The translations under genes and the position numbers were made by a program. The notes beneath the pieces were generated by a model. That model did not search any database. It had not been told where the DNA came from and was given only the letters and a program-made list of their open reading frames with translations. A stretch of DNA of 64,000 nt from Botrimarina mediterranea. Its GTDB lineage: Bacteria; Planctomycetota; Planctomycetia; Pirellulales; Lacipirellulaceae. Position 1 is the first letter of the stretch. Each line of letters opens with the position of its first letter. Positions 2,261-62,486 of this stretch are shown piece after piece. Location of the stretch: contig NZ_CP036349.1 of the NCBI RefSeq assembly GCF_007753265.1, positions 4,683,363-4,747,362 on the forward strand, written 5' to 3'.

Positions 2261-2346
2261 GGAGAGGCTAGAGGTAAGAGGCTAGAGGCTAGGGTAATCG
2301 GGTTGGCGGCGCATCCCTAGCCTCTCGCCTCCAAGCTCTACCCTCT
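2261..2346. repeat. Word palindrome, TAGCCTC word (first locus)
   Basis: The left arm (2261-2294) repeats GAGGCTA with short variations and the right arm (2314-2346) carries CTAGCCTCTCGCCTC and related words. It fills the whole gap between the CPXCG gene and the PPK2 gene. The same word is used at 2538-2630, one gene upstream. Confidence 0.85.
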
Positions 2347-2351
2347 TTTCC

Positions 2352-2534
2352 TCACTCCAACTCCGACCAAACCCGCGTCTCCCCCTCCGGACCGATCTCG
2401 ACCCGGATCACGTTGGGTCGGCAGCAGACAGGGCAGTCTTCGACGTACTCCTGTACCCGCCCGGCGGAGAGGTCGATCGGCACGACGATTTCTTCGCCGC
2501 ACTCGCCGCAGATGTAGGAGGTTTCGGGGGTCAT
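2352..2534 (-). CDS. CPXCG motif cysteine-rich mini-protein
   Basis: This 60-residue protein has two cysteine pairs, CGEC at about residues 9-12 and CPVC at 35-38, plus an adjacent Cys39. The spacing fits a small zinc-ribbon fold of the CPXCG cysteine-rich family. The role of that family is not known to me. It starts at an ATG and lies between RtcB and PPK2 on the same strand, with repeat-filled gaps of about 100 bases on each side. The three genes may form one transcript, but the palindromes between them make this uncertain. Confidence 0.85.
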   Translation of the reverse strand: MTPETSYICGECGEEIVVPIDLSAGRVQEYVEDCPVCCRPNVIRVEIGPEGETRVWSELE

Positions 2535-2537
2535 AAG

Positions 2538-2630
2538 TGGAGAGGCTAGAGGCTAGCGACTTAAGGCTGGAGGTTTGTAGGAAGCACGACGAGCGATCGC
2601 CAACCGCATTCTAGCCTCTAGCCTCTAGCC
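2538..2630. repeat. Word palindrome, TAGCCTC word (second locus)
   Basis: The left arm (2538-2572) contains GAGAGGCTAGAGGCTAG and the right arm (2610-2630) is CTAGCCTC repeated with a 7-base period. It fills the gap between rtcB and the CPXCG gene. Confidence 0.85.
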
Positions 2631-4070
2631 TCAGTCCTCCGCCCGGCTGCCGTCGCCGCACATCTTTACCAGGCGGGGCTCGAAGCGGGCGAGCACATCG
2701 ACAAGGTCTTGCTGCGCGGCCATTACGGCGTGGATGTCTTTGTAGACGCCCGGCACTTCGTCGGCGCCGGCGGCGAGGACCTCGACGCCGTCGGCAGCGA
2801 GCCGCTTCTGCTCGGCGCCGAAGCGGAAGGTGTCGTTCGCCTGGCGGCGGCTCATGCGACGTCCGGCCCCGTGCGACGCGCTCTTGAGGCTCGCCGCCAC
2901 GCCGCGGCCACGGACAACGAACGCCGGCGTCCCCATCGAGCCGGGGATCACGCCGAGTTCGCCCGCCGCCGCCGGGGTGGCGCCCTTGCGATGCACGATC
3001 ACCTCGCGTTCGCCACGGCCATCGGGGTTGTGCGTCTCTTTCCAGGCAAAGTTGTGGTGGTTCTCCACGCCGCCGACGACGTGGGCGCCGAGGAGCTTGG
3101 CGACGAGGCGATGGATCACCGCGTGGTTCGCCGCGGCGTACTCGCCCATCAGGTTCATCGCCGCCCAGTAAGCCTGCCCCTCTTCGGAGTCGAGCGACAG
3201 CCAACCCAAGCGACCAAACTCCGCGTAACGTTTCGGCAACAGGCGCTGCGCGATCTGGCTGTACGTGCTGCACACGGCCGCCCCGGCGCCGCGGCTGCCG
3301 CTGTGGCTGAGCAGCGCGACGTAGCGTCCCGGGTCGAGTCCAAGGTCATCCGAGCGTTCGTCAACGACCAGCTCGCCGAACTCAACGAAGTGATTGCCCG
3401 AGCCGCTCGTGCCGAGCTGTTTCCAGGCAGTGTCCTTCTTCTCGCGCGTAATGCGGGTGACATTCCAGTCGAGGTCCATCACGTCGTGCTGCTGCCGCGG
3501 CGTGTGCTCGACGCCGACGCCGAAGCGCGTCCCCTTCTCAAGCGATTCGCGGTAGGCGTTGCGACGCGTCGCAAGCGACTCGACCGGCATGTCGAGCACC
3601 GACAGCTTCATGCGACAAGCGATGTCCACGCCGACCGCGTAGGGGATGACCGCGTTCTCGCAAGCGAGCACGCCGCCGATCGGCAGGCCGTAGCCGATAT
3701 GCGCGTCGGGCATCAGCGCAGCGCCGACCGCCGACGGGACCCGACACGCCGCGCGCATCTGGTCGTGCGCGCCGGGATCGATGGCGTCTTCCGCCGTTGG
3801 GCACTCCCAAGCCGTGTAGTGAACCGGCGGCCGATCGGGTTCGCCCACGCGTTCGTCGTGGTGCTCCTTCAGCGCCGCGGCGAAGTCGGCCCACACGGGG
3901 TCGGCCGCGAACGCGTCGGCGTCCGCAAGCAGCGCCGTGATCGACTCCTTCGCGCGTTTCCCCTTGAGGCCGAAGCCGGTTCCCTTCTCCGCCGCGGTCG
4001 AGAGACAGCGGATGGCGACGGGCACGCACGCCGGCGGGACGCCGAGTTTTTCGAGTTGCTTGCGGTTCAT
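2631..4070 (-). CDS. rtcB: RtcB family RNA ligase
   Basis: RtcB joins RNA ends carrying 2',3'-cyclic phosphate or 3'-phosphate to 5'-hydroxyl ends, using GTP and manganese. The 479-residue protein carries the family landmarks in order: DAHIGYG at 122-128, VGVDIACRM at 146-154 (metal-binding Cys152), GSGNHFVEFG at 223-232, NHHNFAW at 337-343, HRKGATPA at 360-367, PGSMGT at 376-381, and SHGAGRRMSR at 399-408. His400 in the last motif is the expected guanylylated residue. All the active-site motifs look intact. No archease or RtcA gene is next to it, so its use (RNA repair or another role) is open. It starts at ATG without a clear ribosome binding site. Confidence 0.95.
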   Translation of the reverse strand: MNRKQLEKLGVPPACVPVAIRCLSTAAEKGTGFGLKGKRAKESITALLADADAFAADPVWADFAAALKEHHDERVGEPDRPPVHYTAWECPTAEDAIDPGAHDQMRAACRVPSAVGAALMPDAHIGYGLPIGGVLACENAVIPYAVGVDIACRMKLSVLDMPVESLATRRNAYRESLEKGTRFGVGVEHTPRQQHDVMDLDWNVTRITREKKDTAWKQLGTSGSGNHFVEFGELVVDERSDDLGLDPGRYVALLSHSGSRGAGAAVCSTYSQIAQRLLPKRYAEFGRLGWLSLDSEEGQAYWAAMNLMGEYAAANHAVIHRLVAKLLGAHVVGGVENHHNFAWKETHNPDGRGEREVIVHRKGATPAAAGELGVIPGSMGTPAFVVRGRGVAASLKSASHGAGRRMSRRQANDTFRFGAEQKRLAADGVEVLAAGADEVPGVYKDIHAVMAAQQDLVDVLARFEPRLVKMCGDGSRAED

Positions 4071-4096
4071 AATGGAATGATAAGGAAGGTCCCGAA

Positions 4097-4136
4097 CCGG
4101 GGGCTGAGGCCCCGCGGCTGATAAGCCTCCGCGCCC
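4097..4136. repeat. CCGGGGGCTRAGG repeat, single arm
   Basis: This is one arm of the palindrome family found complete at 121-194 and 32042-32115, with CCGGGGGCTGAGGCCCCGCG followed by GCTGATAAGCC. The second arm is missing. It lies just upstream of rtcB. Confidence 0.75.
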
Positions 4137-4388
4137 CTAGCGACCCGCCAACCGATTCACCGGCGTGATCGAGAATTGTGTGGAACGGGTGAAGACCCCC
4201 ACCAACTACCGAGGGTTCGCCAACCCTGCTAGTGCGACCGCTGAGAGTTGCCGGCGCCGCGAACTCAAGCAGCCGGCGCCGAAATCCTGAGCTTTTGCGC
4301 GAACTTTTTGGCGATAGCAGCGTCAGAAACTCTGTGGATCGACGTTTCTTCCGGAGAAATCTCTGATGCCTCCGAAGGGGACGCCGAT

Positions 4389-4394
4389 TAAGCT
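4389..4394 (+). promoter_or_regulatory. Putative -10 box TAAGCT
   Basis: TAAGCT in the context GATTAAGCTAGAGG matches the -10-like element in front of the genes at 5383 (GTTAAGCTAGAGG) and 60796 (GATAAGCTGACGG). It would start a transcript near 4401, where no coding gene follows but a structured stretch and a terminator do. No good -35 box is visible. Confidence 0.5.
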
Positions 4395-4400
4395 AGAGGC

Positions 4401-4678
4401 ATCGAGGTCGTGCTAACGCGGCGCGACAAACGAAAGGGCCCCGCGGGAGTGTCTCTGGCATTCACGCCCGCTCGGCCGGCACCAGTAAGAAGGAGGTGGT
4501 ACCTTGACCGACTGTTTCCCTAGCCAGCCCGGTGGTCTGGCCTGAAGCGACCGGCGGGTCGCTGATGCGACCACCACCTGCTTCGACACACTAGGGACTT
4601 GATCACCCCATGTGTGCTCAAAGCATGTAATTGAAAAAGCCCGGCCCCGTCGCCGTGACGGGGCCGGGCTTGTTTTTT
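4401..4678 (+). ncRNA. Candidate structured non-coding RNA
   Basis: Between a promoter-like box (4389-4394) and a strong terminator (4639-4678) lies about 230 bases without a normal gene. By eye the core can fold into a branched structure. TCCCTAG near 4517-4523 pairs with CTAGGGA near 4591-4597. Inside are CCAG/CTGG, GAAGC/GCTTC (about 4543-4547 with 4580-4584) and GCGACC/GGTCGC hairpins. An AGGAGGTGGT motif at 4491-4500 can pair with ACCACCT near 4573-4579. That motif also looks like a ribosome binding site in front of a 13-codon frame starting TTGACC at 4504. It could therefore be a small RNA, or a leader or peptide-coding RNA. I could not match it to tmRNA, SRP RNA, 6S or RNase P. Confidence 0.45.
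4639..4678 (+). terminator. Rho-independent terminator
   Basis: A 13-bp perfect stem (GCCCGGCCCCGTC with GACGGGGCCGGGC) and a 5-base loop are followed by TTGTTTTTT. It ends the candidate RNA and points away from the minus-strand genes to the left. An A-run at 4634-4638 could allow some function on the other strand. Confidence 0.9.
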
Positions 4679-4754
4679 GGCGGTCTCGACGTGGCTACGC
4701 CACGATCTCGCTACGCCTAGCGCCGCTGTTGGATCACCGCAGCTTAGCGGCGAT

Positions 4755-4760
4755 TAGGCT
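4755..4760 (+). promoter_or_regulatory. Putative -10 box TAGGCT
   Basis: TAGGCT in GATTAGGCTTG lies 66 bases upstream of the ATG at 4826 and matches the recurring TARGCT element of this window. Confidence 0.4.
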
Positions 4761-4825
4761 TGCTACGCGTTCGTAGGCGCTACACCCACTTGCGTAGGGC
4801 CTGCTGTTCGAGTCTCTTGCGGCGC

Positions 4826-5245: not shown

Positions 5246-5304
5246 AGCGGCCCACGCTGGCGGCCCTTTACCCCCTCTTTGCTGGGCATTTTCCTAGACA
5301 TCGT

Positions 5305-5334
5305 TTGGGGTCGGACGCGCTCTCTCGTTAAGCT
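5305..5334 (+). promoter_or_regulatory. Putative promoter TTGGGG-N18-TAAGCT
   Basis: A -35-like TTGGGG (5305-5310) is 18 bases from TAAGCT (5329-5334), placing a transcript start about 40 bases before the ATG at 5383. Confidence 0.5.
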
Positions 5335-5382
5335 AGAGGTTTGTCGCCTCAGCCCCCCCACGGGTACGGAACGGAGAAAGGC

Positions 5383-8337: not shown

Positions 8338-8344
8338 GGTTAAT

Positions 8345-8431
8345 CACCACAACGGAATCGACGACCACGACGGATCAATAGCGGGACAGTGTTGCCCCGT
8401 CGAAGAGTACGTCGTGTCCGTCGTGGTTCAC
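8345..8431. repeat. Word palindrome, CCACGACGG word
   Basis: The left arm carries CCACAACGGAATCGACGACC and CACGACGG; the right arm carries CGTCGTGTCCGTCGTGG. It fills the gap between the convergent 5383 and VWA genes, where a bidirectional terminator would be useful, but no T-run is present. Confidence 0.75.
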
Positions 8432-8447
8432 TTCTTGCAGAGCTCGA

Positions 8448-10031: not shown

Positions 10032-10144
10032 GGCGTTGAGCGCGCGGAAGGGTTCGTTGCAACGACCTCCTCAGTTCCGCGTGGCACGCTAATTTGCCGC
10101 AGGGGCCTGCTCCAGAAAAAAGGGCGAAAGCCGGGTTTGGGGGA

Positions 10145-10162
10145 GTGACAGCAGTTTGTCAC
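10145..10162. promoter_or_regulatory. GTGACA-N6-TGTCAC palindrome
   Basis: A perfect dyad, GTGACA then six bases then TGTCAC, lies 114 bases upstream of the VWA start. The same dyad with the same spacing occurs at 23395-23412, upstream of a PEP-CTERM gene. It may be an operator or a short hairpin. Confidence 0.35.
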
Positions 10163-10192
10163 CCAAGCGACAGACTCCGTTATCGCCGGGTC

Positions 10193-10264
10193 TTAGCCGT
10201 GGGCGGAAGCCCTCGGTGGACGGCGGGTATCAGGGCTCTACCGAGGGCTACCGCCCACGGCTAA
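10193..10264. repeat. AGCCGTGGGCGGAAGCCCTCGG palindrome family, copy 1
   Basis: TTAGCCGTGGGCGGAAGCCC at the left is answered by GAGGGCTACCGCCCACGGC at the right. It lies next to the gltX stop codon. Related copies are at 23300-23372 and 60607-60679. Confidence 0.85.
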
Positions 10265-10271
10265 CGCCTAC

Positions 10272-11864: not shown

Positions 11865-11903
11865 CGGAGAGAGGGTCGGACGGGCGCGAAGCGGCAAGCC
11901 GCT

Positions 11904-13453: not shown

Positions 13454-15712
<2,259 letters not shown>

Positions 15713-15729
15713 CCGCCCCATCGAGCACG

Positions 15730-15981
15730 ATGCCCTACACGACGGAACCCACTGGACTGCGCCTCGCCCGGCAATCGACGCTTGCGGCTGTCGCTGAGGC
15801 CGCGCTCGACGAGGCGTTCGCAACGGTGTCCGTCCCCGAACGGCGCCGCGATGCGGGACACGCCACTCGGGAAACGCTCACGGAGACGGCCCAGCTAGCC
15901 GAAACCCTGCGCGAGCAACTCTCCTCGCTCGACGCCCAGCGCCGGCATCTGGCCCAGTTGCTTGAGGGAATGGGCGCGTAA
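15730..15981 (+). CDS. Small coiled-coil protein downstream of the GGDEF gene
   Basis: The 83-residue protein is Ala/Glu/Leu/Arg-rich and mostly helical, with heptad-like leucines in the second half (LAETLREQLSSLDAQRRHLA). It has no signal peptide or membrane segment. It begins 17 bases after the stop of the HD/PAS/GGDEF gene and is probably co-transcribed, so a partner role is plausible. The family is not recognised. Confidence 0.65.
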   Translation: MPYTTEPTGLRLARQSTLAAVAEAALDEAFATVSVPERRRDAGHATRETLTETAQLAETLREQLSSLDAQRRHLAQLLEGMGA

Positions 15982-15989
15982 TCTTCAGG

Positions 15990-16075
15990 CGAGCTGGGAG
16001 CGTCCGCGACTGGAGTTGCGCCACAGTTGAGTCGCCCGGTCGTTCAACTCCGGTCGCTGACGCTCCCGGCTCGCC
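15990..16075. repeat. GAGCYGGGAGCGTC...GGAGTTG palindrome family
   Basis: The left arm CGAGCTGGGAGCGTCCGCGA plus CTGGAGTTGCG is answered by CAACTCCGGTCGCTGACGCT plus CCCGGCTCG. It follows the stop codon of the 15730 gene. Related units are at 18826-18931, 47670-47749 and 48921-49006, with single arms near the left edge and near 51170. Confidence 0.85.
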
Positions 16076-16164
16076 GTCTATCGCTAAGTGAGCTCGGCTG
16101 TCGGGGCCAAACTCATACCCACGGTCCGCACAGCGGACCCTACGCGCTGGCGCGGGGATTGCGT

Positions 16165-16170
16165 TAGGCT
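16165..16170 (+). promoter_or_regulatory. Putative -10 box TAGGCT
   Basis: TAGGCT in GCGTTAGGCTCAGGG lies 112 bases before the superoxide dismutase start. It would give a leader of about 100 bases. No clear -35 box was found. Confidence 0.4.
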
Positions 16171-16281
16171 CAGGGACATGGCCCCACGCTCTGGCGGGGG
16201 TTCTTTACTCGCCCCCAACTGGCCGCCGCTCGCTCAGGGCGCCCGGCCTGCAACCATCCCGATCATAGGAGTCTCGCCACT

Positions 16282-20442: not shown

Positions 20443-20525
20443 AGAGGCGCTAGTTTTGAGTCGCTAGACGCTGGTTCTCGCTTGGACTCCAACAACTAGC
20501 GCCCAGCGCCTCCCAACTAGCGCCC
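20443..20525. repeat. Word palindrome, CTAGCGCC word
   Basis: The left arm has GAGGCGCTAGTTTTGAGTCG then CTAGACGCTGG; the right arm has CAACAACTAGCGCCCAGCGC followed by CTCCCAACTAGCGCCC. It is followed by a short CCCCTAACCCC tract. It lies inside the fab block, between fabD and fabG. Confidence 0.8.
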
Positions 20526-21336: not shown

Positions 21337-21352
21337 GCCGCCTGACTGCGGC

Positions 21353-21438
21353 AGGGACGAGGGGTTAGGGACGAGGGACGAGGGAAAAATTGAAGCATCC
21401 TGCTTCCCCTCGTCCCCCGTCCCTAGCCCCTAACCCCT
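21353..21438. repeat. Word palindrome, GGGACGAGG word
   Basis: The left arm is GGGACGAGGGGTTAGGGACG followed by AGGGACGAGGG; the right arm is CCCCTCGTCCCCCGTCCCTA plus GCCCCTAACCCC. It lies between fabG and acpP. Single arms with the same words occur at 16898-16934 and 53040-53073. The rest of the gap (21439-21655) shows no gene. Confidence 0.85.
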
Positions 21439-21667
21439 GGGCATAAGCCCCATCCCACCTTGACCCGCTTTGCGGAGACCTTCTATTTTGTGACGCTTCG
21501 CATGACTGCGAAGGCTTTGACAGCGTCGGTGCGATGCATAGGTCGCTGCCCCCCCGGCAGCGGCTTAGAGAACGCCCCTCAAATAGGCCCACCCCCACCA
21601 TGGCTGGCGGCGTCCGCCTCGCCCCATGGGGAAATCTGACAACCAGGCGACAGTAAGGAGAGTGACC

Positions 21668-23278: not shown

Positions 23279-23299
23279 AGCGGGCGTCGCCGCAGCGTC

Positions 23300-23372
23300 T
23301 GAGCCGGGGGCGTTAGCCCTCGGTGGGCAGCGCAACCCGCGCCTCACACCGAGGGCTCGCGCCCCCGGCTCA
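23300..23372. repeat. GAGCCGGGGGCGTTAGCCCTCGG palindrome family, copy 2
   Basis: TGAGCCGGGGGCGTTAGCCC is answered by GAGGGCTCGCGCCCCCGGCTC. It follows the fabF stop codon by about 20 bases. See 10193-10264 and 60607-60679. Confidence 0.85.
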
Positions 23373-23394
23373 GAGGTTCACTAGGGGCGTGACG

Positions 23395-23412
23395 GTGACA
23401 GAAGGCTGTCAC
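23395..23412. promoter_or_regulatory. GTGACA-N6-TGTCAC palindrome, second site
   Basis: The same dyad and spacing as at 10145-10162, here 114 bases upstream of the PEP-CTERM gene at 23526. Both sites are followed a few bases later by CGACAG. Confidence 0.35.
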
Positions 23413-23525
23413 CGACAGTGGCGGCGTCCCGTGAAAATGCCGCATGAATGGTTGGGATTCGGTTTGATGGGTAATTAGAGTGCAGGGCCTGCCAGCCCTA
23501 AGCACCCAAACCCCGCAAACCACCC

Positions 23526-25097: not shown

Positions 25098-25152
25098 TCG
25101 ATGGTGGCGCTAATCGATGGTGGCGCCAACCTATGGTGGCGCCAACCGATTA
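25095..25152. repeat. Tandem repeat TAATCGATGGTGGCGC, three units
   Basis: Units of 16-17 bases (TAATCGATGGTGGCGC, TAATCGATGGTGGCGCC, AACCTATGGTGGCGCC) run directly from the stop codon of the preceding gene. They end in AACCGATTA, the complement of the opening TAATCG. This is the only tandem array of this kind in the window. Confidence 0.9.
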
Positions 25153-25247
25153 AGGGAGTTAGTTGCTGAATCTCGACCCGGACCGTAGCCTGATACTTGT
25201 TCGATGCCGGCAAATCGGCGTCGCTACTCGTCAGCGGGAACAGGCGG

Positions 25248-28184: not shown

Positions 28185-28231
28185 GCATTCGTCCTTAAGA
28201 ACTTAAGCACGGATATGACTACGGTTGAATA

Positions 28232-28374
28232 TGGGAGGGGTCTCCCGACAACTTGTGTTGTGGGAGGCGTCTCCAGACGCCGATGACGCGCACCATGCCG
28301 TGTTCGGCCAAGAAACCGTAATCGGGGTCTGGAGACCCCTCCCACAAGTTGTTAGAGACCCCTCCCACAAGTTG
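28232..28374. repeat. GTGGGAGGCGTCTCC palindrome, full unit with flanking fragments
   Basis: The complete unit is 28258-28346: GTGGGAGGCGTCTCCAGACG at the left, a central GCGCACCATGCCG, and CGGGGTCTGGAGACCCCTCC at the right. Extra pieces of the same words (GGGAGGGGTCTCCCGACAAC and GAGACCCCTCCCACAAGTTG) flank it, as if units had been duplicated or nested. Two GTTGATGGGGGCGCCT copies follow at 28372-28410. Confidence 0.9.
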
Positions 28375-28439
28375 ATGGGGGCGCCTCCTATACGTTGATG
28401 GGGGCGCCTACGGCATGCGCTTCGCATCCAAGGCTGGGC

Positions 28440-38532: not shown

Positions 38533-38641
38533 TACGAAGAAGGAAGGGAACCATTATGGCACGAAGAGCAGGAAGGTCGCCAATTCAAGACTGACCGGGC
38601 TCAAGAATCTTTCCTTTGTGTCCTTCGTGCCTTCGCGGTTC
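38533..38641. repeat. Word palindrome, GAAGGCACGAAGG word
   Basis: The left side has GAAGAAGGAAGGGAACC and GGCACGAAGAGCAGGAAGG; the right side has TTTCCTTTGTGTCCTTCGTG then CCTTCGCGGTTCG. The match of the arms is looser than at other loci. It lies between the convergent 37199 and 38662 genes. Confidence 0.7.
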
Positions 38642-38661
38642 GCTAAAATTGCCCCGCGAAC

Positions 38662-54415: not shown

Positions 54416-54530
54416 AATGACCAATGATCAAATCCCAATGACTAATGCCATGAAACCGCGAAGGCCCTCCCCTTCAGCCCCTAGCCCTCCGCCATTGGTC
54501 ATTGGGGCTTGGTCATTGGGATTTATCATT
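54416..54530. repeat. Word palindrome, CAATGACCAATGA word
   Basis: GAATGACCAATGATCAAATC then CCAATGACTAATG at the left is answered by CATTGGTCATTGGGGCTTGG then TCATTGGGATTTATCATT at the right. It runs straight into the repeat at 54529-54559. It lies between proS and the DUF1573 gene on the minus strand. Confidence 0.85.
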
Positions 54531-54559: not shown

Positions 54560-54577
54560 TAGGAGTGGGAGCGAAGA

Positions 54578-56080
54578 TCAATAAGCCCGCGCGAACACCG
54601 CCCGCCGCTCGCTCCGCCCGCCGGTGAAGAGGCACTCGCCCGCGCCGTCGTCCCCCAGCAGCGGCTCCAGCGGCACGCAGCGCGGCGTCACCTTCAGCGC
54701 TTTGCACTTGGCTTCCATCTCGGGGCCGTCGGTGAAGTGGGCGTAGGCGAGGCCGCCCGGCTGGCCCTCGGCGAAAAACGCTTCGAAGTCGGCCAGCGTG
54801 TCGATCACGACCGACGCCTCGTCGCGGGCCCGCTTCGCCCGATCGAACAGCTGCTGCTGCAACTCGCCGAGCATCTTCGGCGCGTCGGCGACGAACTTGG
54901 CCCGCTCGACGCCGACACCCTTCTCCATCAGCCGTGAGGCGGCGAAGACGCTCGCCGAGGCCACGTCGCGCGGGCCGACCTCGACGCGCAGCGGCACGCC
55001 ACGCTTCACCCACTGCCACTTCTTCTCGCCGCCACGTAGGTCGCGGGTATCGATCCGCACCCGCAACTTTTCGCCGTCGTACTCCTGGGTGGACAGTTCG
55101 TTCTTGAGCGACTCGCAGTAAGGCAGCACCGCGGCGCGCTCCTCATCGTTCTTGAAGATCGGCAGAATCACGGCGTGCGCCGGCGCGAGCTTCGGCGGGC
55201 AGATCAAACCATCGTCATCGGCGTGCGACATGATCAGGCCGCCAACGAGCCGCGTGCTAACACCCCAGCTGGTGGTCCAGGCGTATTGGAACTCACCGGC
55301 CTGGTTCTGGAATTTGATCTCTTGCGCCTTGGCGAAGTTCTGGCCGAGGAAGTGGCTCGTGCCCGCTTGCAGGGCTTTGCGGTCCTGCATCATCGCCTCG
55401 ATCGAGTAGGTCGCCGCCGCGCCGGGGAACCGCTCGCCGGCCGTCTTCTCGCCTTTGATGACCGGCATCGCCATCGCCCCCTCGGCGAACTCGGCGTACA
55501 CGTCGAGCATCTTGCGCGTCTCTTCCTGCGCCTCCTCAGCGGTCGCGTGGACCGTGTGGCCTTCTTGCCAAAGGAACTCGGCCGTGCGGAGGAACATCCG
55601 CGTCCGCAGCTCCCAGCGCACGACGTTCGCCCATTGGTTGATGAGGATCGGCAGGTCGCGGTAGCTCTGCACCCACCGCGCGAACGTTGCGCCGATGATC
55701 GTCTCGCTGGTGGGCCGGACGATCAGCGGCTCCTCAAGCTTCGCGCTCGGCGCCGGCTGCAAGCCGCCCTTGCCGTTCGGCTCGAGGCGGTGGTGCGTCA
55801 CGACGGCGCACTCCTTGGCGAACCCCTCGACGTGCTCGGCCTCCTTCTCCAGGAAGCTCATCGGGATGAAGAGCGGGAAGTAGGCGTTGTCGTGCCCCGT
55901 CTCCTTGAAGCGCGTGTCGAGCCGCCGCTGGATGTTCTCCCACAGGGCGTACCCCCACGGCTTGATGACCATGCAGCCCCGCACGTCCGAGTTCTCAGCC
56001 AGGTCGGCCGCCTTAACGACCTGCTGGTACCACTCGGGGTAGTTTTCGGAGCGGGTGGGGGAGATGGCAGTCTTGGCCAT
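54578..56080 (-). CDS. proS: Proline--tRNA ligase, archaeal/eukaryotic-type
   Basis: ProRS charges tRNA-Pro. At 500 residues with no editing insertion, and with the end ERRAVFARAY, it is the short type found in archaea, eukaryotes and some bacteria, not the long bacterial type. Class II features are visible: PMSFLEKEAEHVEGFAKEC early, RPTSETIIGATFARW, the motif 2 loop RTRMFLRTAEFLWQEGHTVH, and GTSHFLGQNFA further on. It starts at ATG and is divergent from the yhaM-type gene. Its 5' leader begins directly with an arm of a word palindrome. Confidence 0.96.
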   Translation of the reverse strand: MAKTAISPTRSENYPEWYQQVVKAADLAENSDVRGCMVIKPWGYALWENIQRRLDTRFKETGHDNAYFPLFIPMSFLEKEAEHVEGFAKECAVVTHHRLEPNGKGGLQPAPSAKLEEPLIVRPTSETIIGATFARWVQSYRDLPILINQWANVVRWELRTRMFLRTAEFLWQEGHTVHATAEEAQEETRKMLDVYAEFAEGAMAMPVIKGEKTAGERFPGAAATYSIEAMMQDRKALQAGTSHFLGQNFAKAQEIKFQNQAGEFQYAWTTSWGVSTRLVGGLIMSHADDDGLICPPKLAPAHAVILPIFKNDEERAAVLPYCESLKNELSTQEYDGEKLRVRIDTRDLRGGEKKWQWVKRGVPLRVEVGPRDVASASVFAASRLMEKGVGVERAKFVADAPKMLGELQQQLFDRAKRARDEASVVIDTLADFEAFFAEGQPGGLAYAHFTDGPEMEAKCKALKVTPRCVPLEPLLGDDGAGECLFTGGRSERRAVFARAY

Positions 56081-56122
56081 TGCGGATTGGGGATTGTGGA
56101 TTGCGGATTCTTGAAGCGGGGC

Positions 56123-56128
56123 ATTCTA
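56123..56128 (-). promoter_or_regulatory. Putative -10 box TAGAAT for proS
   Basis: Read on the minus strand, GCCTAGAATGCC contains TAGAAT 43 bases before the proS start. Confidence 0.4.
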
Positions 56129-56189
56129 GGCGCCGCCTGCCTCGCTCGGGAATGGAGCTGCCCCCCGGGTCCCGGCGAGCCCTATCTGA

Positions 56190-56195
56190 TAGGCT
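56190..56195 (+). promoter_or_regulatory. Putative -10 box TAGGCT for the YhaM-type gene
   Basis: TAGGCT in TGATAGGCTCATACC lies 42 bases before the ATG at 56237. It matches the boxes at 16165 and 4755. Confidence 0.45.
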
Positions 56196-56236
56196 CATAC
56201 CCAATCCGCAATCCGAAATCCCCAATCCCCAATCCA

Positions 56237-57208
56237 ATGTCCCGCTTCTTCGTCTCGCAGCTGCAACACAACCAGCAGGTCGACCAAGTCTTCCTCGCTA
56301 GCAACAAGCAGCTGCGGCCCAATCGGCAGGGAAACTTGTTCCTGCAGATCGACCTCTCGGACCGCTCCGGCTCGATGCCCTGCCGGATGTGGAACGCGAC
56401 CGAGCGGGACTACGCCGCGATCGAGAACGGCGACTATGTCTATGTCGAGGGAACCGCGCAGCTCTTCCAGGGGTCGATGCAGCTGATCGCCCAGTCGATC
56501 AAGCGGGCCGAACCGGGGGATGTCGACGAGTCGGACTTCATGACCCTGCAAACCAGCGAGGTGCAAGAGCTCAAGGAACGCCTCCTGAAGACGCTGCGGG
56601 GGATCAAGTCGAAGCCCCTGGCGGCGCTCGTCGAGGCCTACCTCACCGACGACGTCTTCATGGACAAGTTCTGCCGCGCGCCGGCGGGGATCAAGAACCA
56701 CCACGCCTACAAGGGCGGCCTGCTCGACCACGTGGTGAACCTGATGGACGTCGCCCAGGCCGTCGCGCCGAAGTACCCGCAGGTGGACGTCGAGAAGCTG
56801 CTCGTGGGCGTCTTCCTTCACGACTCGGGCAAGGTCGATGAGCTGGAGTACGAGCGCGACCTCGCTTACACCGACGAGGGCCAGATGATCGGCCACATCG
56901 TCCAAGCCGCCTGCCTGCTCGACCGCAAGGCGCGCGAGGCCGAGGGGCGCGCGCAGCTCGCCTTCCCGCCGATGCTCCTCATGGAACTCAAGCACATGGT
57001 GCTCAGCCACCACGGCCACTTGGCGTTCGGCAGCCCCAAGCTGCCGATGACACTCGAAGCGGTGGTCCTTTCCGCGATCGACGACATGGACGCGAAGCTC
57101 GCCAGCTTCACGGGCCTGATCAAAGAATGCCCCAACGCCGACAGCCGCTGGACGCAGTACTTCCCCAACATCGACCGCAAGCTGTGGAAGGGCGTGAAGG
57201 GCGACTGA
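56237..57208 (+). CDS. YhaM-type 3'-5' exoribonuclease (OB fold plus HD domain)
   Basis: The 323-residue protein has an OB-fold nucleic-acid-binding part (about 1-95) with FLQIDLSDRSGSMPCRMWN and VEGTAQLFQGSMQLIA. An HD phosphohydrolase domain follows, with His156/His165 in NHHAYKGGLLDHVV, the metal-binding HDSGK at 195-199, and LSHHGHLAFGSPKLP near 268-282. This layout and length match the YhaM/CBF1 family of 3'-to-5' exonucleases acting on RNA ends (and single-stranded DNA). It starts at ATG immediately after a word palindrome arm and has no Shine-Dalgarno, the word occupying that place. Confidence 0.93.
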   Translation: MSRFFVSQLQHNQQVDQVFLASNKQLRPNRQGNLFLQIDLSDRSGSMPCRMWNATERDYAAIENGDYVYVEGTAQLFQGSMQLIAQSIKRAEPGDVDESDFMTLQTSEVQELKERLLKTLRGIKSKPLAALVEAYLTDDVFMDKFCRAPAGIKNHHAYKGGLLDHVVNLMDVAQAVAPKYPQVDVEKLLVGVFLHDSGKVDELEYERDLAYTDEGQMIGHIVQAACLLDRKAREAEGRAQLAFPPMLLMELKHMVLSHHGHLAFGSPKLPMTLEAVVLSAIDDMDAKLASFTGLIKECPNADSRWTQYFPNIDRKLWKGVKGD

Positions 57209-57239
57209 GGCTCGCCCATACGAGCGGAAGCAAGAAAAT

Positions 57240-57326
57240 TGTGGGAGGCGTCTCCAGACGCCGATTACGCGCACCATGCCGTTTCGGAATGGAAACCGTA
57301 ATCGGCGTCTGGAGACGCCTCCCACA
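57240..57326. repeat. GTGGGAGGCGTCTCC palindrome, reference unit
   Basis: This is the most symmetric copy: TGTGGGAGGCGTCTCCAGAC then GCCGATTACG, a centre GCGCACCATGCCG...GGAAAC, then CGTAATCGGCGTCTGGAGAC then GCCTCCCACA. It lies between the convergent YhaM-type and HPF-like genes. Confidence 0.95.
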
Positions 57327-57350
57327 TGAAAATTTTTGTTTAGGTCGAGG

Positions 57351-57710: not shown

Positions 57711-57956
57711 CACATGCCTCCTAATCACGGTGAAAAGCAGGGCCCCGCCAATCCAGCGACGGCCCTATCAATTCTACGCGGCTGGTCCCCGCGGGGTTCC
57801 CACGACGGCGTTCGGCAAGCCGCCGCCCATGGAGCCTTCCACGGCAGAACCCGCAAAGACCGCCAACTCCGCTCCCTAAATCCGCTATAGTTAGGGACTT
57901 ATGCGAGTCGCGCCCGGCCGGGCCTCCGAACAGCGACCCCCACTTTCGGTAAAGGA
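57711..57956. other. Gap upstream of RNase R
   Basis: No gene is visible. A TATAGT box at 57886-57891 (CGCTATAGTTAGGGAC) may be the -10 element of the rnr promoter, about 185 bases before its ATG. The word palindrome at 57957-58024 would then lie in the rnr leader. Confidence 0.5.
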
Positions 57957-58024
57957 CCACGGATTACACGGATGTCACGGAGAGACGCTGCGATAGCGAT
58001 CCGTGGAATCCGTGTCATCCGTGG
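57957..58024. repeat. Word palindrome, ACGGAT word (second locus)
   Basis: CCACGGATTACACGGATGTC then ACGG at the left is answered by ATCCGTGGAATCCGTGTCAT then CCGTGG at the right. It uses the same word as 1271-1348. It ends 49 bases before the rnr start. Confidence 0.85.
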
Positions 58025-58073
58025 TCACAACTAAGCGTCTCCAAGCGCGCCAACAACGAGAACCAATTCCACC

Positions 58074-60578
58074 ATGGACGACGAACTCCGCTCTGCCATC
58101 CTCTCCTACACCAGCAACCCCGCCTACCGCGCGGTTAAGCCGAAGGTCATCGCCGAGCGGCTCGGGCTCGAGGGCGACGCGGCGGTGAACTGCAAGAAGC
58201 TCGTCAAGAAGCTCATCCGCGAAGGCGAACTCGAGTACGGTCCCAACCACCTCGTCATACCAATCGATCCCGAGCACCCCGCGCGCACGAACCTGATGCC
58301 CGCGGTCACCGGTGAAAGTGGCCATCCCGTCGCCGACAGTGGACAGGCGACAAGCGACAGCCGTCGCGACCGCGGCAACTACGTCGTCGGCACGCTGCGG
58401 CGCATCAGCTCGGGCGACGCCTTCGTCCGTCCCGAAGGGACGCCCGCCTCGGCCGAGCGCGACCTCGACATCTTCGTCCCCGGTCGGCAATCGGGCGACG
58501 CCGCCAGCGGCGACGTGGTGCGACTGGCCGTCTCCAGCCGCCCCGGCGCCTACGGCAAACCGACCGGCAAGGTGGTCGACATCGTCGAGCGGGCCACCAA
58601 TGTCTTCGTCGGCACGTATCTCGAAGAGGCGGGCTCGGCCCTCGTCGAAGTCGATGGCAAGGTCTTCGGCCAGCCGATCTACGTCGGCGACCCCGGCGCG
58701 AAGGGCGCTAAGGAAAGCGACAAGGTCGTCATCGAGATGGTCCGCTTCCCGTCGCAGGTCCGCGACGGCGAGGGCGTCATCTCCCGTATCCTCGGCGACC
58801 GCAGCGCGCCGGGCGTCGACACCCTGTCGATCAAGTACGAGTTCAACCTGCCGGGTGATTTCCCCGAGGAAGTCCTCGAAGACGCCCGCCAGCAAGCGGC
58901 CAAGTTCGACGAGTCGATCCCGGAGGGCCGTCGCGACCTGACCGGCGAGGTGATCGTCACGATCGACCCGCTCACCGCGCGGGACTTCGACGACGCGATC
59001 TCGCTGAAGAAGCTCGACAACGGCCACTGGGAACTGGGCGTCCACATCGCCGACGTCTCGCACTTCGTCGTCCCCAAGTCGGCGCTCGACCGCGAGGCTT
59101 ACGATCGCGCGACGAGCGTCTACCTGCCCGACGAAGTGATCCCGATGCTGCCGGAGATCATCAGCAACAACCTGGCGAGCCTCCAGCCCGACCGCGTCCG
59201 CTACGCCGTGACGGCGCTGCTGGAAATGAGCCCCGAGGGGATGCCGATCAACTGCGAGGTGTTCAAGAGCGCAATCAAGAGCCGCCGGCGGTTCACCTAC
59301 GAGGAAGTCGATCTGTATCTGCTGGCGAAGGGTTTGGTAAGCGCTGACCCGTCGCGAGCCACGTCGTCCCCGACCGCGGCCGATGTCGTGTCGACCCTCT
59401 CCCCCGAAGTCGATCGCCTCCTCGCCGACATGTTCGAGCTCGCCATGAAGCTGCGTAAGCGCCGCTTCGACCGCGGGGCGCTCGAGCTCAGCATGCCCGA
59501 GGTCCAGATCGACCTCGACAAGGACGGCCGCGTCTCCGGCGCGCACGTCGAGAAGAACACCGAGAGCCATCAGGTCATCGAAGAGTTCATGCTGGCGGCC
59601 AACATCGCCGTGGCGACGAAGCTCGCCGACTCAGGACTCCTCTTCCTGCGGCGTATCCACGGCTCGCCCGATCCACGAAAGTCCCGCGCCCTCACGGAGT
59701 TCATCCGTTCGCTCGGCATCCCGGTCGAGAACCTGCAAGACCGCTTCGAGTTGCAACAGGTGCTCGACCGTGTGAAGGGAGACCCGCGACAGCACGCCGT
59801 CAACTTCTCGACGCTGCGTTCGATGCAGAAGGCGATCTACAGCCCCGAGGAAGAGGGCCACTACGCCCTCGCCGCCGATTGCTACTGCCACTTCACGTCG
59901 CCGATCCGTCGTTACCCCGACCTGACGATCCACCGCCTGATCGACGCGCTGAACCATCATCAAGCGGGGACCGGGCCGAAACCCGTCAACGAGATGAGCC
60001 AGCTCTTGCTCGAAGGCGACCACTGCAGCGAGCGTGAGCAACGCGCGTCCGGCGCCGAGCGTGAGCTGAAGAAGATGAAGTTGCTCAACTACCTGAGCGA
60101 CAAGGTCGGCACGGAGATGGACGGCGTCATCACCGGCGTCGAGAAGTTCGGCGTCTTCATCATGGGCCGCGACATGCCGGCCGAGGGCTTCATCCACATC
60201 ACCGCTCTCGGCGACGACTTCTACCAGTTCGACCGCGCCAGCCACTCGATCGCCGGCAAGCGCGAAGGGAACACGTTCCGCCTCGGCGACGCGGTGCGGG
60301 TCGCCGTCGCCAATGTGGATGTCGACGCCCGTGAGCTCGATTTCCGTTACCTCGGCCGGGCCAAGGGCCCCGGCGCGGGGAAACACGCGCAGGAAAAATC
60401 CGCTGGCGGTCGCAAGGGCCGGCCGCTGCCTCCTGAGAAGAAACGACGACCCTCGCAAGGCAAGAACCGCCAGGCACGGGAGCGATCCGCCGGCGCGGGC
60501 GGCAACATGGATAGCCAATCCCCCGCTTCCGGAAACAAGCCGCCCCGCGGCAAAAAGCCCGGCAAGAAGCGCCGGTAG
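58074..60578 (+). CDS. rnr: Ribonuclease R
   Basis: RNase R degrades structured RNA from the 3' end. The 834-residue protein has an N-terminal helix-turn-helix part (ILSYTSNPAYRAVKPKVIAE), cold-shock domains (about 95-260), and the RNB catalytic domain with the metal-binding aspartates Asp304, Asp306 and Asp307 in ARDFDDAISL. An S1 domain follows at about 680-765. The tail of about 70 residues is Lys/Arg/Gly/Pro-rich (GKKPGKKRR at the end), as in other RNase R proteins. The length is typical. Together with RtcB and the YhaM-type enzyme it gives this window three RNA-end-processing enzymes. Confidence 0.96.
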   Translation: MDDELRSAILSYTSNPAYRAVKPKVIAERLGLEGDAAVNCKKLVKKLIREGELEYGPNHLVIPIDPEHPARTNLMPAVTGESGHPVADSGQATSDSRRDRGNYVVGTLRRISSGDAFVRPEGTPASAERDLDIFVPGRQSGDAASGDVVRLAVSSRPGAYGKPTGKVVDIVERATNVFVGTYLEEAGSALVEVDGKVFGQPIYVGDPGAKGAKESDKVVIEMVRFPSQVRDGEGVISRILGDRSAPGVDTLSIKYEFNLPGDFPEEVLEDARQQAAKFDESIPEGRRDLTGEVIVTIDPLTARDFDDAISLKKLDNGHWELGVHIADVSHFVVPKSALDREAYDRATSVYLPDEVIPMLPEIISNNLASLQPDRVRYAVTALLEMSPEGMPINCEVFKSAIKSRRRFTYEEVDLYLLAKGLVSADPSRATSSPTAADVVSTLSPEVDRLLADMFELAMKLRKRRFDRGALELSMPEVQIDLDKDGRVSGAHVEKNTESHQVIEEFMLAANIAVATKLADSGLLFLRRIHGSPDPRKSRALTEFIRSLGIPVENLQDRFELQQVLDRVKGDPRQHAVNFSTLRSMQKAIYSPEEEGHYALAADCYCHFTSPIRRYPDLTIHRLIDALNHHQAGTGPKPVNEMSQLLLEGDHCSEREQRASGAERELKKMKLLNYLSDKVGTEMDGVITGVEKFGVFIMGRDMPAEGFIHITALGDDFYQFDRASHSIAGKREGNTFRLGDAVRVAVANVDVDARELDFRYLGRAKGPGAGKHAQEKSAGGRKGRPLPPEKKRRPSQGKNRQARERSAGAGGNMDSQSPASGNKPPRGKKPGKKRR

Positions 60579-60606
60579 CGCTGGCAGACGAACCACTTCG
60601 AGTGCT

Positions 60607-60679
60607 CACAGCCGTAGGCGGAAGCCCGCGGCGCGCAGCGGGAACATGGCGTCCACCGTTGGCTGCCGCCTCCGGCTGT
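60607..60679. repeat. AGCCGTAGGCGGAAGCCCGCGG palindrome family, copy 3
   Basis: ACAGCCGTAGGCGGAAGCCC at the left is answered by GGCTGCCGCCTCCGGCTGTGG at the right. It follows the rnr stop codon by about 30 bases. See 10193-10264 and 23300-23372. Confidence 0.8.
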
Positions 60680-60739
60680 GGCCCATCGGAATGGTGCGAT
60701 TGCCATCACGGCGCCCCTTCAACCGCCGGCGCTGTCCGA

Positions 60740-60745
60740 TAAGCT
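60740..60745 (+). promoter_or_regulatory. Putative -10 box TAAGCT for the gcv operon
   Basis: TAAGCT in CCGATAAGCTGACGG lies 51 bases before the gcvT ATG, with a possible -35 TTCAAC 16 bases upstream. No glycine riboswitch was recognised in the leader, which is too short for one. Confidence 0.5.
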
Positions 60746-60795
60746 GACGGTCCTAGGAGACCTCGCCCGCCCCCTCCCCCACCGCGACGTAACGG

Positions 60796-61899
60796 ATGTC
60801 GTCCACCGCAGAGCTCTTACGAACGCCGCTCTACGATTGGCACGCGGCCAATGGGGGTCGGCTTGTCGACTTCGCCGGCTGGGCGATGCCGGTACAGTAC
60901 AGGTCGATCGTCGAGGAGCACAACGCCACACGCCAGCGTGTCGGCCTGTTCGACGTGTCGCATATGGGCCGGCTCACCGTCCAGGGCGCCGCGGCAGAGA
61001 TGTGGCTCGACGGCCTCGCCACCCGCCGCGCCGCCGGCACGCCGGTCGGACGCGTGCGGTACTCGCTCATCTGCAACGAGTCGGGAGGCGTCCTCGATGA
61101 CATCCTCTTCACCCGCGTCACCGAAAATCGTTTCGACCTCGTTGTGAACGCGTCGAACCGCGCGAAGTTGCTCGACTGGTTCGCCGAGCACGCCATGGCG
61201 GACGCCGACCTCATCGACCGCACCGAGGCGACCGCGATGATCGCCGTCCAAGGCCCCGGCGCGGTGGAGATGGTCGCTTCGCTCGCCGACGCCGATGTCG
61301 CGTCGATCCGCTACTACCGTTCGGGCGAAGCCAACATCGCCGGCGCCCCGTGTGTCGTCAGCCGCACCGGCTACACCGGCGAAGACGGCTTTGAACTGAT
61401 CGCCAACGCCAACCAAGCCGAAGCCATTTGGAAGGCCCTAATCAACCTCGGGGCAGCCGCTTGCGGCTTAGCGTCGCGCGACACGCTCCGTCTTGAAGCC
61501 GGCATGCCCCTCTACGGCCACGAGCTCCGCGAAAGACTCAATCCGCTCCATGCCGGGCTCGGCTTCGCCGTTGACTTTGAGGACGCCGATGGCGGTCGGC
61601 GGACGTTCGTCGGCAGCGACGCACTGCTGAAGGCAAGAGAGGACGGCTCGGTGGCCCGGCGCGTCGGTCTCAGGGTCGAAGGCAAGCGCCCGCCGCGCGA
61701 GGAGTACCGCGTGCTGGTCGATGGCCGGCCGTGCGGCGTCGTCACCAGCGGGACGCACTCGCCGACGCTCGGGTATCCGATCGCAATGGCTTACATCGAG
61801 CCGGAGCTAACCCAAGAAGGGACGCGCGTCGCCATCGACATCCGCGGAACGGAGACGCCCGCGATGGTCGTTCCGTTGCCGTTTTATAAGAGGTCGTAG
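60796..61899 (+). CDS. gcvT: Aminomethyltransferase (glycine cleavage T protein)
   Basis: The T protein takes the aminomethyl group from lipoylated H protein and makes methylene-tetrahydrofolate and ammonia. The 367-residue protein opens LRTPLYDWHAANGGRLVDFA and has VGLFDVSHMGRL near 50-60, ALINLGAAACGLASRDTLRL for the folate-side segment, EAGMPLYGHEL, and the C-terminal domain ending PAMVVPLPFYKR. It heads a gcvT-gcvH-gcvPA run. The ATG at 60796 is preceded by a TAAGCT promoter-like box. Confidence 0.96.
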   Translation: MSSTAELLRTPLYDWHAANGGRLVDFAGWAMPVQYRSIVEEHNATRQRVGLFDVSHMGRLTVQGAAAEMWLDGLATRRAAGTPVGRVRYSLICNESGGVLDDILFTRVTENRFDLVVNASNRAKLLDWFAEHAMADADLIDRTEATAMIAVQGPGAVEMVASLADADVASIRYYRSGEANIAGAPCVVSRTGYTGEDGFELIANANQAEAIWKALINLGAAACGLASRDTLRLEAGMPLYGHELRERLNPLHAGLGFAVDFEDADGGRRTFVGSDALLKAREDGSVARRVGLRVEGKRPPREEYRVLVDGRPCGVVTSGTHSPTLGYPIAMAYIEPELTQEGTRVAIDIRGTETPAMVVPLPFYKRS

Positions 61900-61951
61900 T
61901 CGTTCGTGGCTCGACCGCGGTCGGGGACGACGCGGCTCTCGTGCGACGGCT

Positions 61952-61997
61952 CGCTTTCAAAACTCGAAACTCACGACTCAAAACGTACAACTCCCTC
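61952..61997. repeat. Word repeat arm, AACTCGAAACTC word
   Basis: AAAACTCGAAACTCACGACT then CAAAACGTACAACTCCC runs up to the gcvH start codon. Only this one arm is clear; no matching complement was found nearby. Confidence 0.65.
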
Positions 61998-62393
61998 ATG
62001 AACCCTGAATCCTTGCTGTTCGCCAAGACGCACGAGTGGGTCGCCGTCGCCGAGACTGGCGGCGAGAAGGTCGCCACCATCGGCATCTCCAAGCACGCCG
62101 TCGAAGCGCTGACGGACCTCGTCTTCATCGAGCTGCCGAAAGTGGGCCGCTCCGTCGACGCCGAGGAGTCGTTCTGTGAAGTCGAGTCCGTCAAGGCGGT
62201 TAGCGATGTCTACAGCCCGGTGACCGGCGAGGTCGTCGAGGTCAACGAGCCGCTCGCCGACCAGCTCGAAGTCCTCAGCGACGACCCCTACGGCAAGGGC
62301 TGGATCGCCAAGGTCAAGATCACCGACGAGACTTCGCTCGCCGGCCTGATGGACTACGAGGCGTATGAGAAAATGTGTGCGGAAGAGGCGTGA
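61998..62393 (+). CDS. gcvH: Glycine cleavage system H protein
   Basis: The H protein carries the aminomethyl group on a lipoyl arm between the P, T and L proteins. The 131-residue protein shows the lipoyl attachment site Lys66 in CEVESVKAVSDVYSPVTGEV, and KTHEWVAV near the start. The length is typical. The ATG at 61998 follows a word-repeat arm rather than a ribosome binding site; the longer frame from 61941 is repeat-derived. Confidence 0.96.
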   Translation: MNPESLLFAKTHEWVAVAETGGEKVATIGISKHAVEALTDLVFIELPKVGRSVDAEESFCEVESVKAVSDVYSPVTGEVVEVNEPLADQLEVLSDDPYGKGWIAKVKITDETSLAGLMDYEAYEKMCAEEA

Positions 62394-62394
62394 C

Positions 62395-62486
62395 GAAGTT
62401 GGAAGTGCGAAGTGGGAAGTGGGAAATCCCTTTCGCTAACTCCAACGTGCTTCTTCCAACTTCCGACTTCCTACTTCCCACTTCGA
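62395..62486. repeat. Word palindrome, GGAAGTGGGAAGT word
   Basis: GAAGTTGGAAGTGCGAAGTG then GGAAGTGGGAA at the left is answered by TTCTTCCAACTTCCGACTTC then CTACTTCCCACTTCG at the right. It fills the whole gap between gcvH and gcvPA inside an operon, overlapping the sequences just after the stop and just before the start. Confidence 0.9.

Follow-up and report, generated by a model that had tools for sequence, protein, structure and literature searches.

Word palindromes between the genes of Botrimarina mediterranea as probable small mobile elements of two classes

Introduction

The 64-kb stretch analysed here (the window; contig NZ_CP036349.1, positions 4,683,363 to 4,747,362) belongs to the single-contig, 5.87-Mb genome of Botrimarina mediterranea (G000). 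Gaps between its protein genes hold inverted repeats in which one arm is a short word repeated in tandem and the other arm its complement. A sequence-only reading of the window had listed 11 such word palindromes and took them not to be copies of one element but the outcome of a process that writes or maintains palindromes, or of selection for an RNA structure. We observed that word palindromes are present or absent at otherwise homologous junctions, that they flank genes of two protein families, that the word period matches the family, that the arms keep a strand polarity, and that heptamer words carry a weak AG signal. These palindromes are probably small selfish mobile elements of two classes, whose ends would be recognised by word period and a weak AG code. 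Class A would have arms of 7-letter words (8-letter in some lineages) and, in its complete form, one gene in the loop encoding a four-helix-bundle protein of the IVP/S23 family (PF05635, the "23S rRNA intervening sequence" protein, hereafter IVP), and class B would have arms of 8-10-letter words and carry one gene of the GxxExxY family (PF13366, PD-(D/E)XK-like). The palindromes of the window would be gene-less derivatives, comparable to miniature inverted-repeat transposable elements (MITEs) or to REPINs (doublets of repetitive extragenic palindromic, REP, sequences forming hairpins).

Results

Genes were called with a home-made codon-usage caller, and palindromes were searched with a strict detector that demands a 7-letter word twice per arm with at most two mismatches in total. 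Seven of the 11 listed loci pass this detector, which adds one locus at 38560. The words at 8345, 20443, 33796 and 54416 are imperfect and were seen in arm alignments only; in such alignments, repeated-word inverted arms are present at all 11 loci. The window contains 22 strict clusters versus 4.7 ± 1.8 after shuffling (40 shuffles, maximum 8), 12 of the 22 lying within called genes with one to three matches each. In a 464-kb sample of the genome, composed of the window and 20 stretches of 20 kb, the 349 gaps hold 49 clusters versus 1.14 ± 1.18 after shuffling (50 shuffles, maximum 5), and coding DNA holds 56 more. When an equal period of 7-10 was demanded in both arms, 36 elements were found in gaps versus 0.10 expected, along with 5 in coding DNA, an excess that confirms the observation.

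The period-7 words are GAGGCTA, GGGACGA, GGATTGC, GAAGTGG, CAATGAC, AGTGGGC and GGCGCTA, and those of period 8-10 are CACGGAT-NN, CACGAAG-NN, CGCGGATGAA and GGAACGAA; class B words often start with ACCAC or ACCGC. Words consist of a constant and a free part, as in CACGGAT-NN, whose last two letters vary, or in GAAGT-N-G. The ACGGAT word read earlier at 1271 and 57957 is indeed repeated, its true unit being CACGGAT plus two free letters with a period of 9. The loci share a grammar without sharing a sequence, as proposed, and their words differ, but the statement that they are not copies of one element has to be amended since single words form dispersed families. Genome-wide, the CACGGAT pattern has 45 matches with at most one mismatch (22 forward and 23 reverse; reversed control, 0), its orientation being fixed, + at left and - at right, and 66 matches with at most two mismatches, in facing pairs, were counted for the 25-nt CAATGAC arm (reversed control, 0). 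Loops of CAATGAC elements differ among copies, some of them containing a second palindrome, and several otherwise unrelated loops (among L166-L195) have a short apical hairpin, for example GGAGC-NNNN-GCTCC or GTGC-NNNN-GCAC. The 5' arm has more G than C in 101 of 115 loci and more C than G in 10.

The gap between gcvH and gcvPA, which we take to be the genes flanking the palindrome at 62394..62485, holds in genome G017 a word palindrome with an open reading frame (ORF) in its loop, read by eye as a four-helix-bundle protein, and PF05635 loci were therefore examined. The identity of the L065 ORF was judged by eye only. In B. mediterranea, each of the six PF05635 loci (seven profile matches, of which two are the halves of a single broken gene) and each of the six PF13366 loci is flanked by word arms, judged by reading, the weakest cases being L093 and the broken L084/L086. 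The gene-less palindromes have the features of MITEs, namely terminal inverted repeats, no ORF and many dispersed copies, and they share their ends with fuller gene-bearing elements of the same genome: L081 and L082, both IVP loci, use words that also occur in the window, and the IVP locus L087 has the 25-nt CAATGAC arm.

In the order (117 genomes), PF05635 is present in 70 genomes and PF13366 in 60. Arms were scored as z > 4 against a per-locus shuffle and called periodic at a fraction of at least 0.5, neighbour ORFs serving as control, and the order-level loci are the best-scoring ones rather than a random sample. Inverted arms with z > 4 were found at 27/33 IVP loci and 27/31 GxxExxY loci versus 2/64 neighbour ORFs, and were also clearly periodic at 19/33 and 16/31, respectively. 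Among loci with arms, the best period is 7 in 26/27 for IVP, and for GxxExxY it is 8, 9 or 10 in 23/27 and 11 or 12 in the other 4. From 580 confirmed named IVP loci, the best 80 were taken, again not a random sample, and 74 could be tested, six being too near contig ends. Arms reach z > 4 at 61 of these 74, exceed all 60 shuffles at 59 and are also periodic at 54; only three of 73 neighbours have z > 4, and these three are also word arrays. The period is 7 in 44 of the 61 loci, 8 in 16 and 10 in one. Loci with z > 4 come from Planctomycetota, Bacteroidota, Acidobacteriota, Gemmatimonadota, Clostridia, several proteobacterial groups, Verrucomicrobiota, Kiritimatiellaeota, Nitrospirae, SAR324, KSB1, Cloacimonadota and lineages of the candidate phyla radiation, among others. 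On plasmids, word arms flank 12/12 IVP loci examined (12 of 34 records) and 3/7 GxxExxY loci examined (7 of 8 records), the three being from Bacteroides, Bernardetia and Sphingomonas, and a Gemmatirosa plasmid has a GxxExxY gene with a complete word palindrome on either side. A cross-locus null was exceeded at its 99th percentile by 12/34 IVP and 15/31 GxxExxY loci and at its maximum by 0/34 and 13/31; this null is hard to exceed because loci have words in common, and the per-locus shuffle and neighbour controls were used in its place. L113, L132, L140, L144 and L151 were left out for short or odd length, and L084 and L113 from the period and arm test of IVP. A 143-aa ORF without an NCBIfam match lies inside a CGCAGAGA word palindrome of period 8 (L048:15270-15891) and is perhaps a third resident gene family.

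Some junctions are filled in one genome and empty in a related one. Picosynechococcus PCC 7003 has an IVP element at cas10|cmr3, where PCC 7002 has 12 bases; the word arms at this cas IVP gene and the empty PCC 7002 site point to insertion. Six copies of a Nostoc plasmid operon were compared (the query L207 and 5 of the 10 other spanning records). Site 1 is filled in one copy and empty in five, three of which have a TAATG stop/start overlap; site 2 is filled in two copies, with TTCTA duplicated; and site 3 is filled in four, of which two contain nested inner palindromes. A further Nostoc junction is empty in one plasmid and has a gene-bearing element in a second and a gene-less one in a third. 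Sphingomonas parapaucimobilis has a GxxExxY element at fabD|fabG, between the stop codon and the presumed ribosome-binding region, and S. paeninsulae has none. At cas6|cas4, an IVP element is present in Anabaena 90, and Dolichospermum, with flanks 99% identical, has a different, non-word palindrome there (GTAGGTTGGGTTG...CAACCCAACCTAC, L296). One Nostoc site shows a 5-nt target-site duplication (TTCTA), another a 3-nt one (ATG). These cases show that word elements can insert between stop and start codons, even within operons, which would be the simplest route for an element to survive there. The view that no element is involved is not supported: in the filled and empty pairs, the palindromes mark both ends of an insertion, which in some cases carries a resident gene.

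We also followed the words at single sites. Among 29 gcvH|gcvPA loci found, 27 have adjacent genes (that of the window included): a word palindrome was read at 8, 7 have a gap of at most 15 nt and 12 a longer gap without clear two-sided arms. The eight use GAAGTGG (two congeners), GGAATGCG, GAAAGGC, GGATTGC (two), GAATGAC and GAAGGGG. In the gap 56078-56239, the loop can be aligned among three congeners, with arms of GGATTGC in G000 and of GGAATGG in G003. Both gaps bear out the expectation that words would change while the palindrome stays. The arms at 21352 show few changes between G000 and G001, with folding retained in both. At gatA|gatB, the GxxExxY elements of G000 and G001 use the same word, and G003 has a gene-less element with another word, G013 a longer word-flanked element and G110 a partial one; short one-sided arrays are found in G005 and G121 and an 18-nt gap in G008, and G002 and G009 have no element at this junction.

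To describe what the resident proteins might recognise, we took 80 period-7 IVP loci, setting aside early stops, short proteins, loci with z <=4 (named and order sets) and other periods. Their words fit a weak logo, Y-A-G-K-N-R-Y, with a likelihood of -606 versus -652 for position-shuffled words (sd 2.9, best -644, 20 runs); AG occurs in 67/80 words versus 35/80 for GA. The more alike two IVP proteins are, the more alike their words tend to be (Mantel r = 0.24, p = 0.0005, n = 80, G+C content partialled out). IVP matches the profile TIGR02436 and, weakly and below the cut-off, that of Avd of diversity-generating retroelements (DGRs; NF033474, 2.2e-6), and the solved structures 2gsc and 2rld; we know of no nuclease motif in it. 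In GxxExxY, D62, E72 and K74 are invariant in 13/13 sequences. Its predicted structure is confident (predicted local distance difference test, pLDDT, 95.7), its best structural matches being weak (E > 0.001), to the Cas4-type SSO0001 and to lambda exonuclease, and its sequence has no match among PDB sequences. One GxxExxY gene pair, compared between G000 and G001, is under purifying selection (nonsynonymous divergence pN 0.10, synonymous divergence pS 0.84). A PADLOC search for defence systems with one IVP and one GxxExxY gave no match.

The palindromes of the window lie between called protein genes and not in an rRNA gene, and neither Rfam RNAs (gathering threshold) nor tRNAs were found in the window. 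They are listed in Table 1.

Table 1. Gene-less word palindromes of the window, with arm coordinates and complementarity counts taken from arm alignments
Span	Arms	Class (word)	Setting	Basis and remarks
1268..1351	1268-1296, 1323-1351	B (period 9, CACGGAT-NN)		strict detector and alignment, 27/29 complementary
2264..2345	2264-2294, 2315-2345	A (period 7, GAGGCTA)	fills gap 2255-2351	strict detector and alignment
2541..2626	2541-2556, 2611-2626	A (GAGGCTA)	fills gap 2535-2630	strict detector and alignment, 16/16
8346..8427		B-like (ACCAC.ACGG words, weakly periodic)	convergent genes either side	gapped alignment 27/36; missed by strict detector
20446..20524		A (GGCGCTA)	tandem gene gap	arm alignment; word common to IVP element L081
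21352..21439		A (GGGACGA)		arm alignment; word common to IVP element L082
33795..33874		A-like (TGAGGCT), imperfect words		alignment 26/32
38545..38644		B (CACGAAG-NN)		strict detector and alignment, 23/32; new relative to the earlier list
54421..54519		A (CAATGAC)		arm alignment; family of 66 genome-wide arm matches including IVP element L087
56079..56233		A (GGATTGC)	both arms adjoin start codons	arm alignment and congener comparison
57955..58026		B (CACGGAT-NN)	divergent genes either side	strict detector and alignment
62394..62485		A (GAAGTGG)	fills gap within gcv operon (gcvH/gcvPA)	arm alignment and gap comparison

The junction of the palindrome at 20446..20524 is without inverted arms in G001, G002 and G003, and the palindrome at 21352..21439 is kept in the congener G001 and absent from G002, and G003 has another, degenerate array. 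Next to the palindrome at 56079..56233, the minus-strand call at 56195-57019 is doubtful, since a plus-strand start (ATGTCCCG) at about 56237 is conserved in 4/4 congeners compared. The window also has long inverted repeats that are not made of words (57020-57350, 28185-28439, 10032-10271, 23279-23525, 60579-60795 and 15713-16281; for example TGTGGGAGGCGTCTCCAGACGCCGATTACG). The core of the repeat at 57020-57350 is shared with the palindrome around the Y1_Tnp gene L346, and these repeats are therefore probably of the type formed by REPINs and REP-associated tyrosine transposases (RAYTs). At 25098-25247, directly after a stop codon, copies of TAATCGATGGTGGCGCC of about 17 nt with variation are repeated in direct, not inverted, orientation.

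Discussion

The results are best explained if the word palindromes are mobile elements spread by a resident protein that binds the word arrays at their two ends. What this protein reads would be the period plus a few letters, not a fixed sequence, and the word could drift as long as both arms stay alike, which slippage and hairpin-mediated correction, or co-evolution with the protein, may ensure. Gene-less copies would be moved in trans. The hairpin may be tolerated in operons, perhaps through RNase III trimming as with 23S intervening sequences. For class B, the likeliest route would be a cut by the putative PD-(D/E)XK nuclease followed by copying repair. Set beside homing-endonuclease-like elements, whose resident nuclease has an intact active-site motif, GxxExxY is a candidate by its invariant D, E and K and its weak Cas4- and lambda-exonuclease-like matches. 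Recognition of the ends by the resident protein is suggested by the matching of period and protein and by the co-variation of words with IVP, and its role as mover by analogy with REPIN/RAYT.

Another machinery, such as Y1 transposases of the IS200/RAYT type or a reverse transcriptase, might instead move the hairpins, with IVP and GxxExxY as passengers or regulators. We regard this as unlikely, even though candidates are at hand: the genome has five Y1_Tnp and three RVT profile matches, Y1_Tnp was found in 10/11 other genomes searched, help in trans is possible in B. mediterranea, and the likeness of IVP to the DGR accessory protein Avd seen in our profile search is also described in PMC10053308. 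Because three of the five Y1_Tnp genes lie inside non-word palindromes, REPIN/RAYT seems to be present in this genome as well, and one of the three (L346) is also inside a word array. However, none of the palindromes closest to these Y1 genes is made of words, the word loops with a gene that were inspected contain IVP or GxxExxY and not a Y1 transposase, and the two of three RVT loci that were checked are both without word arms. Moreover, G022 has four IVP loci and no Y1_Tnp match, and a common mobiliser would not give a period that follows the protein family.

The sequence-only reading had suggested writing in place, in which arrays arise by slippage and are then copied as inverted arms by template-switch repair, without need of a mobile element. 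In its favour, the same gap can have a conserved loop with different words between congeners, variation within arrays is moderately concentrated by phase (phase variance 0.0203 versus 0.0159 at random, sd 0.0016, 27 elements), and the array length of the Coxiella intervening sequence (IVS) varies among strains according to PMC4990558. Slippage and correction between arms may thus explain word drift inside an element, but they leave the arrival of the palindrome unexplained. The filled and empty sites refute writing in place as the whole story, and the resident gene between arms, with neighbour genes as control, the 25-nt arm at dozens of sites with fixed polarity and the nested complete palindromes also speak against it, so that we give it little credit.

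It is very improbable that the palindromes are RNA structures under selection that tolerate any sequence, be they terminators, mRNA-stability hairpins or regulator sites. Their position is intergenic, the 36 elements are predicted to fold stably (mean z -5.4), which upholds that part of the earlier proposal, and readings of this kind are put forward in the accounts of the Geobacter (PMC2700814) and Beggiatoaceae (PMC4679880) heptamers. However, TTTT lies within 12 nt of an arm in only 3/36 elements, and gaps between convergent genes hold 5/36 elements versus 41/307 gaps with both neighbours called, which is no excess and, with the TTTT count, leads us to reject intrinsic terminators. The insertions within the gcv, cas and fab operons and the many orthologous gaps without a palindrome do not fit such structures either. 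Finally, the idea that G-rich heptamers act as G-quadruplexes or another non-B form of DNA, put forward for Xanthomonas GGGAATC (PMC4692102), has hardly any claim despite the G-rich 5' arms, since many words lack a GGG run (CAATGAC, TTAGTTT, CACAGAT) and yet behave like the others, and the complementary arm and resident gene would be left unexplained.

Several observations weigh against a mobile element driven by its resident protein. The Mantel test corrects for G+C content and not for phylogeny, Foldseek with GxxExxY gave nothing at E <= 0.001 (best 0.0026), and a 75-codon IVP pair in which one copy is broken has pN 0.079 and pS 0.125, which indicates no strong constraint. Arms are not significant at 13/74 named IVP, 6/33 order-level IVP and 4/31 GxxExxY loci, and are weak or absent at the plasmid GxxExxY loci of Treponema, Prevotella and Persicobacter. 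Arms of the genome's own gene-bearing elements match its sampled gaps in 7/11 cases versus 17/51 for foreign arms, a modest contrast. Duplications are inconsistent, none being clear at the Picosynechococcus site or at the third Nostoc site. In the gap 56078-56239, the arms of G001 are mismatched (GGAAGTG left, GGATTGC right), and at gatA|gatB of G007 a gene-less palindrome (L355) has its ACCACGAAGG words toward the loop, a polarity reversed with respect to most. Lastly, gene-less density follows the presence of IVP and GxxExxY only loosely. Strict matches number 36 per 464 kb in G000, 3 per 100 kb in G001 and 2 per 100 kb in G003, some of those in G001 and G003 not being word-like, versus one per 240 kb, not word-like, in G002 and G033, which have neither protein. 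Across 13 sample sets from 14 genomes the direction is as expected, but with so few elements elsewhere that the comparison has little power; outside the genus, genomes with one or both genes give 0-1 strict elements per 80 kb.

Many of the pieces described here can be found in known systems. The short tandemly repeated repetitive sequences (STRRs) of cyanobacteria were reportedly presented by Mazel in 1990 as intergenic heptamer repeats, work by Elhai in 2008 belongs to the same literature, and Costa reportedly described in 2002 a heptanucleotide hairpin in the tRNA-Leu(UAA) intron. This hairpin, located in P6b of the cyanobacterial intron, is described in PMC3488679 as made of degenerate heptanucleotides. 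As in our elements, its heptamers pair arm to arm, change in copy number and can receive extra sequence; unlike class A, it lies inside a group I intron loop, and a relation between the two is a lead. For other heptamers, the accounts consulted report GGGAATC in two xanthomonads, with 70 and 75 facing pairs (PMC4692102), paired MTYCTGA class 3 sites in Geobacter (PMC2700814) and TAACTGA in Beggiatoaceae (PMC4679880). The STRRs and the Xanthomonas and Geobacter repeats are likewise heptamer arrays and mostly intergenic; the passages describing them treat them word by word, as repeats, G-quadruplexes or regulator sites, and link no resident gene to them.

For 23S rRNA, PMC11270868 describes IVP in rRNA insertions and ORF-less insertions at the same sites, and PMC4990558 describes, for the Coxiella IVS, tandem GACAGAT heptamers beside the S23p ORF, variable in number among strains, with excision by RNase III. 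Gene-bearing class A elements resemble such S23p-type IVSs in their PF05635 protein and in the ORF within a stem loop; a likeness in the word arms may be drawn from the heptamer description in PMC4990558. The word elements differ in lying between protein genes and not in an rRNA gene, and, from the IVSs as described in these sources, in their inverted heptamer arms and dispersed gene-less copies. REPINs are presented in PMC3116915 as intergenic inverted pairs that form predicted hairpins and are dispersed by a partner protein. Our elements are also intergenic inverted pairs with predicted hairpins; unlike in REPIN/RAYT, their gene-bearing loops, as far as inspected, have IVP or GxxExxY and no Y1 transposase, and in place of a fixed REP pair their arms are tandem free words that differ between sites and species. 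Genes for 23S_rRNA_IVP in cas loci, for example between Cmr2 and Cmr3, are reported as CRISPR-Cas-associated in PMC3936711, and the placement is the same here. PMC8934634 belongs to the related literature.

The pieces thus exist in earlier papers, and what is new is joining word palindromes with IVP and GxxExxY; among the open-licence PMC papers, as far as their consulted text goes, we found none that makes this link. We see the elements as mobile palindromes of a new form, which could be set apart as a separate category if binding and mobility were demonstrated. It is possible, and we propose it tentatively, that they form a new category of selfish element, whose ends are set by period and a minimal AG code, so that a small protein (S23/IVP or GxxExxY) would go on recognising them however far the word drifts. 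The S23p IVSs of 23S rRNA, the cyanobacterial and Xanthomonas heptamers and the tRNA-Leu intron hairpin would then be local forms, and the function of IVP and GxxExxY would be to mobilise their own hairpin. If this is true, two very common protein families without an assigned function would be the partners of a very widespread small bacterial mobile element, and S23p intervening sequences, cyanobacterial heptamer repeats and IVP genes in CRISPR operons would be explained together. Recognition by period rather than by sequence would make the co-evolution of protein and word directly testable.

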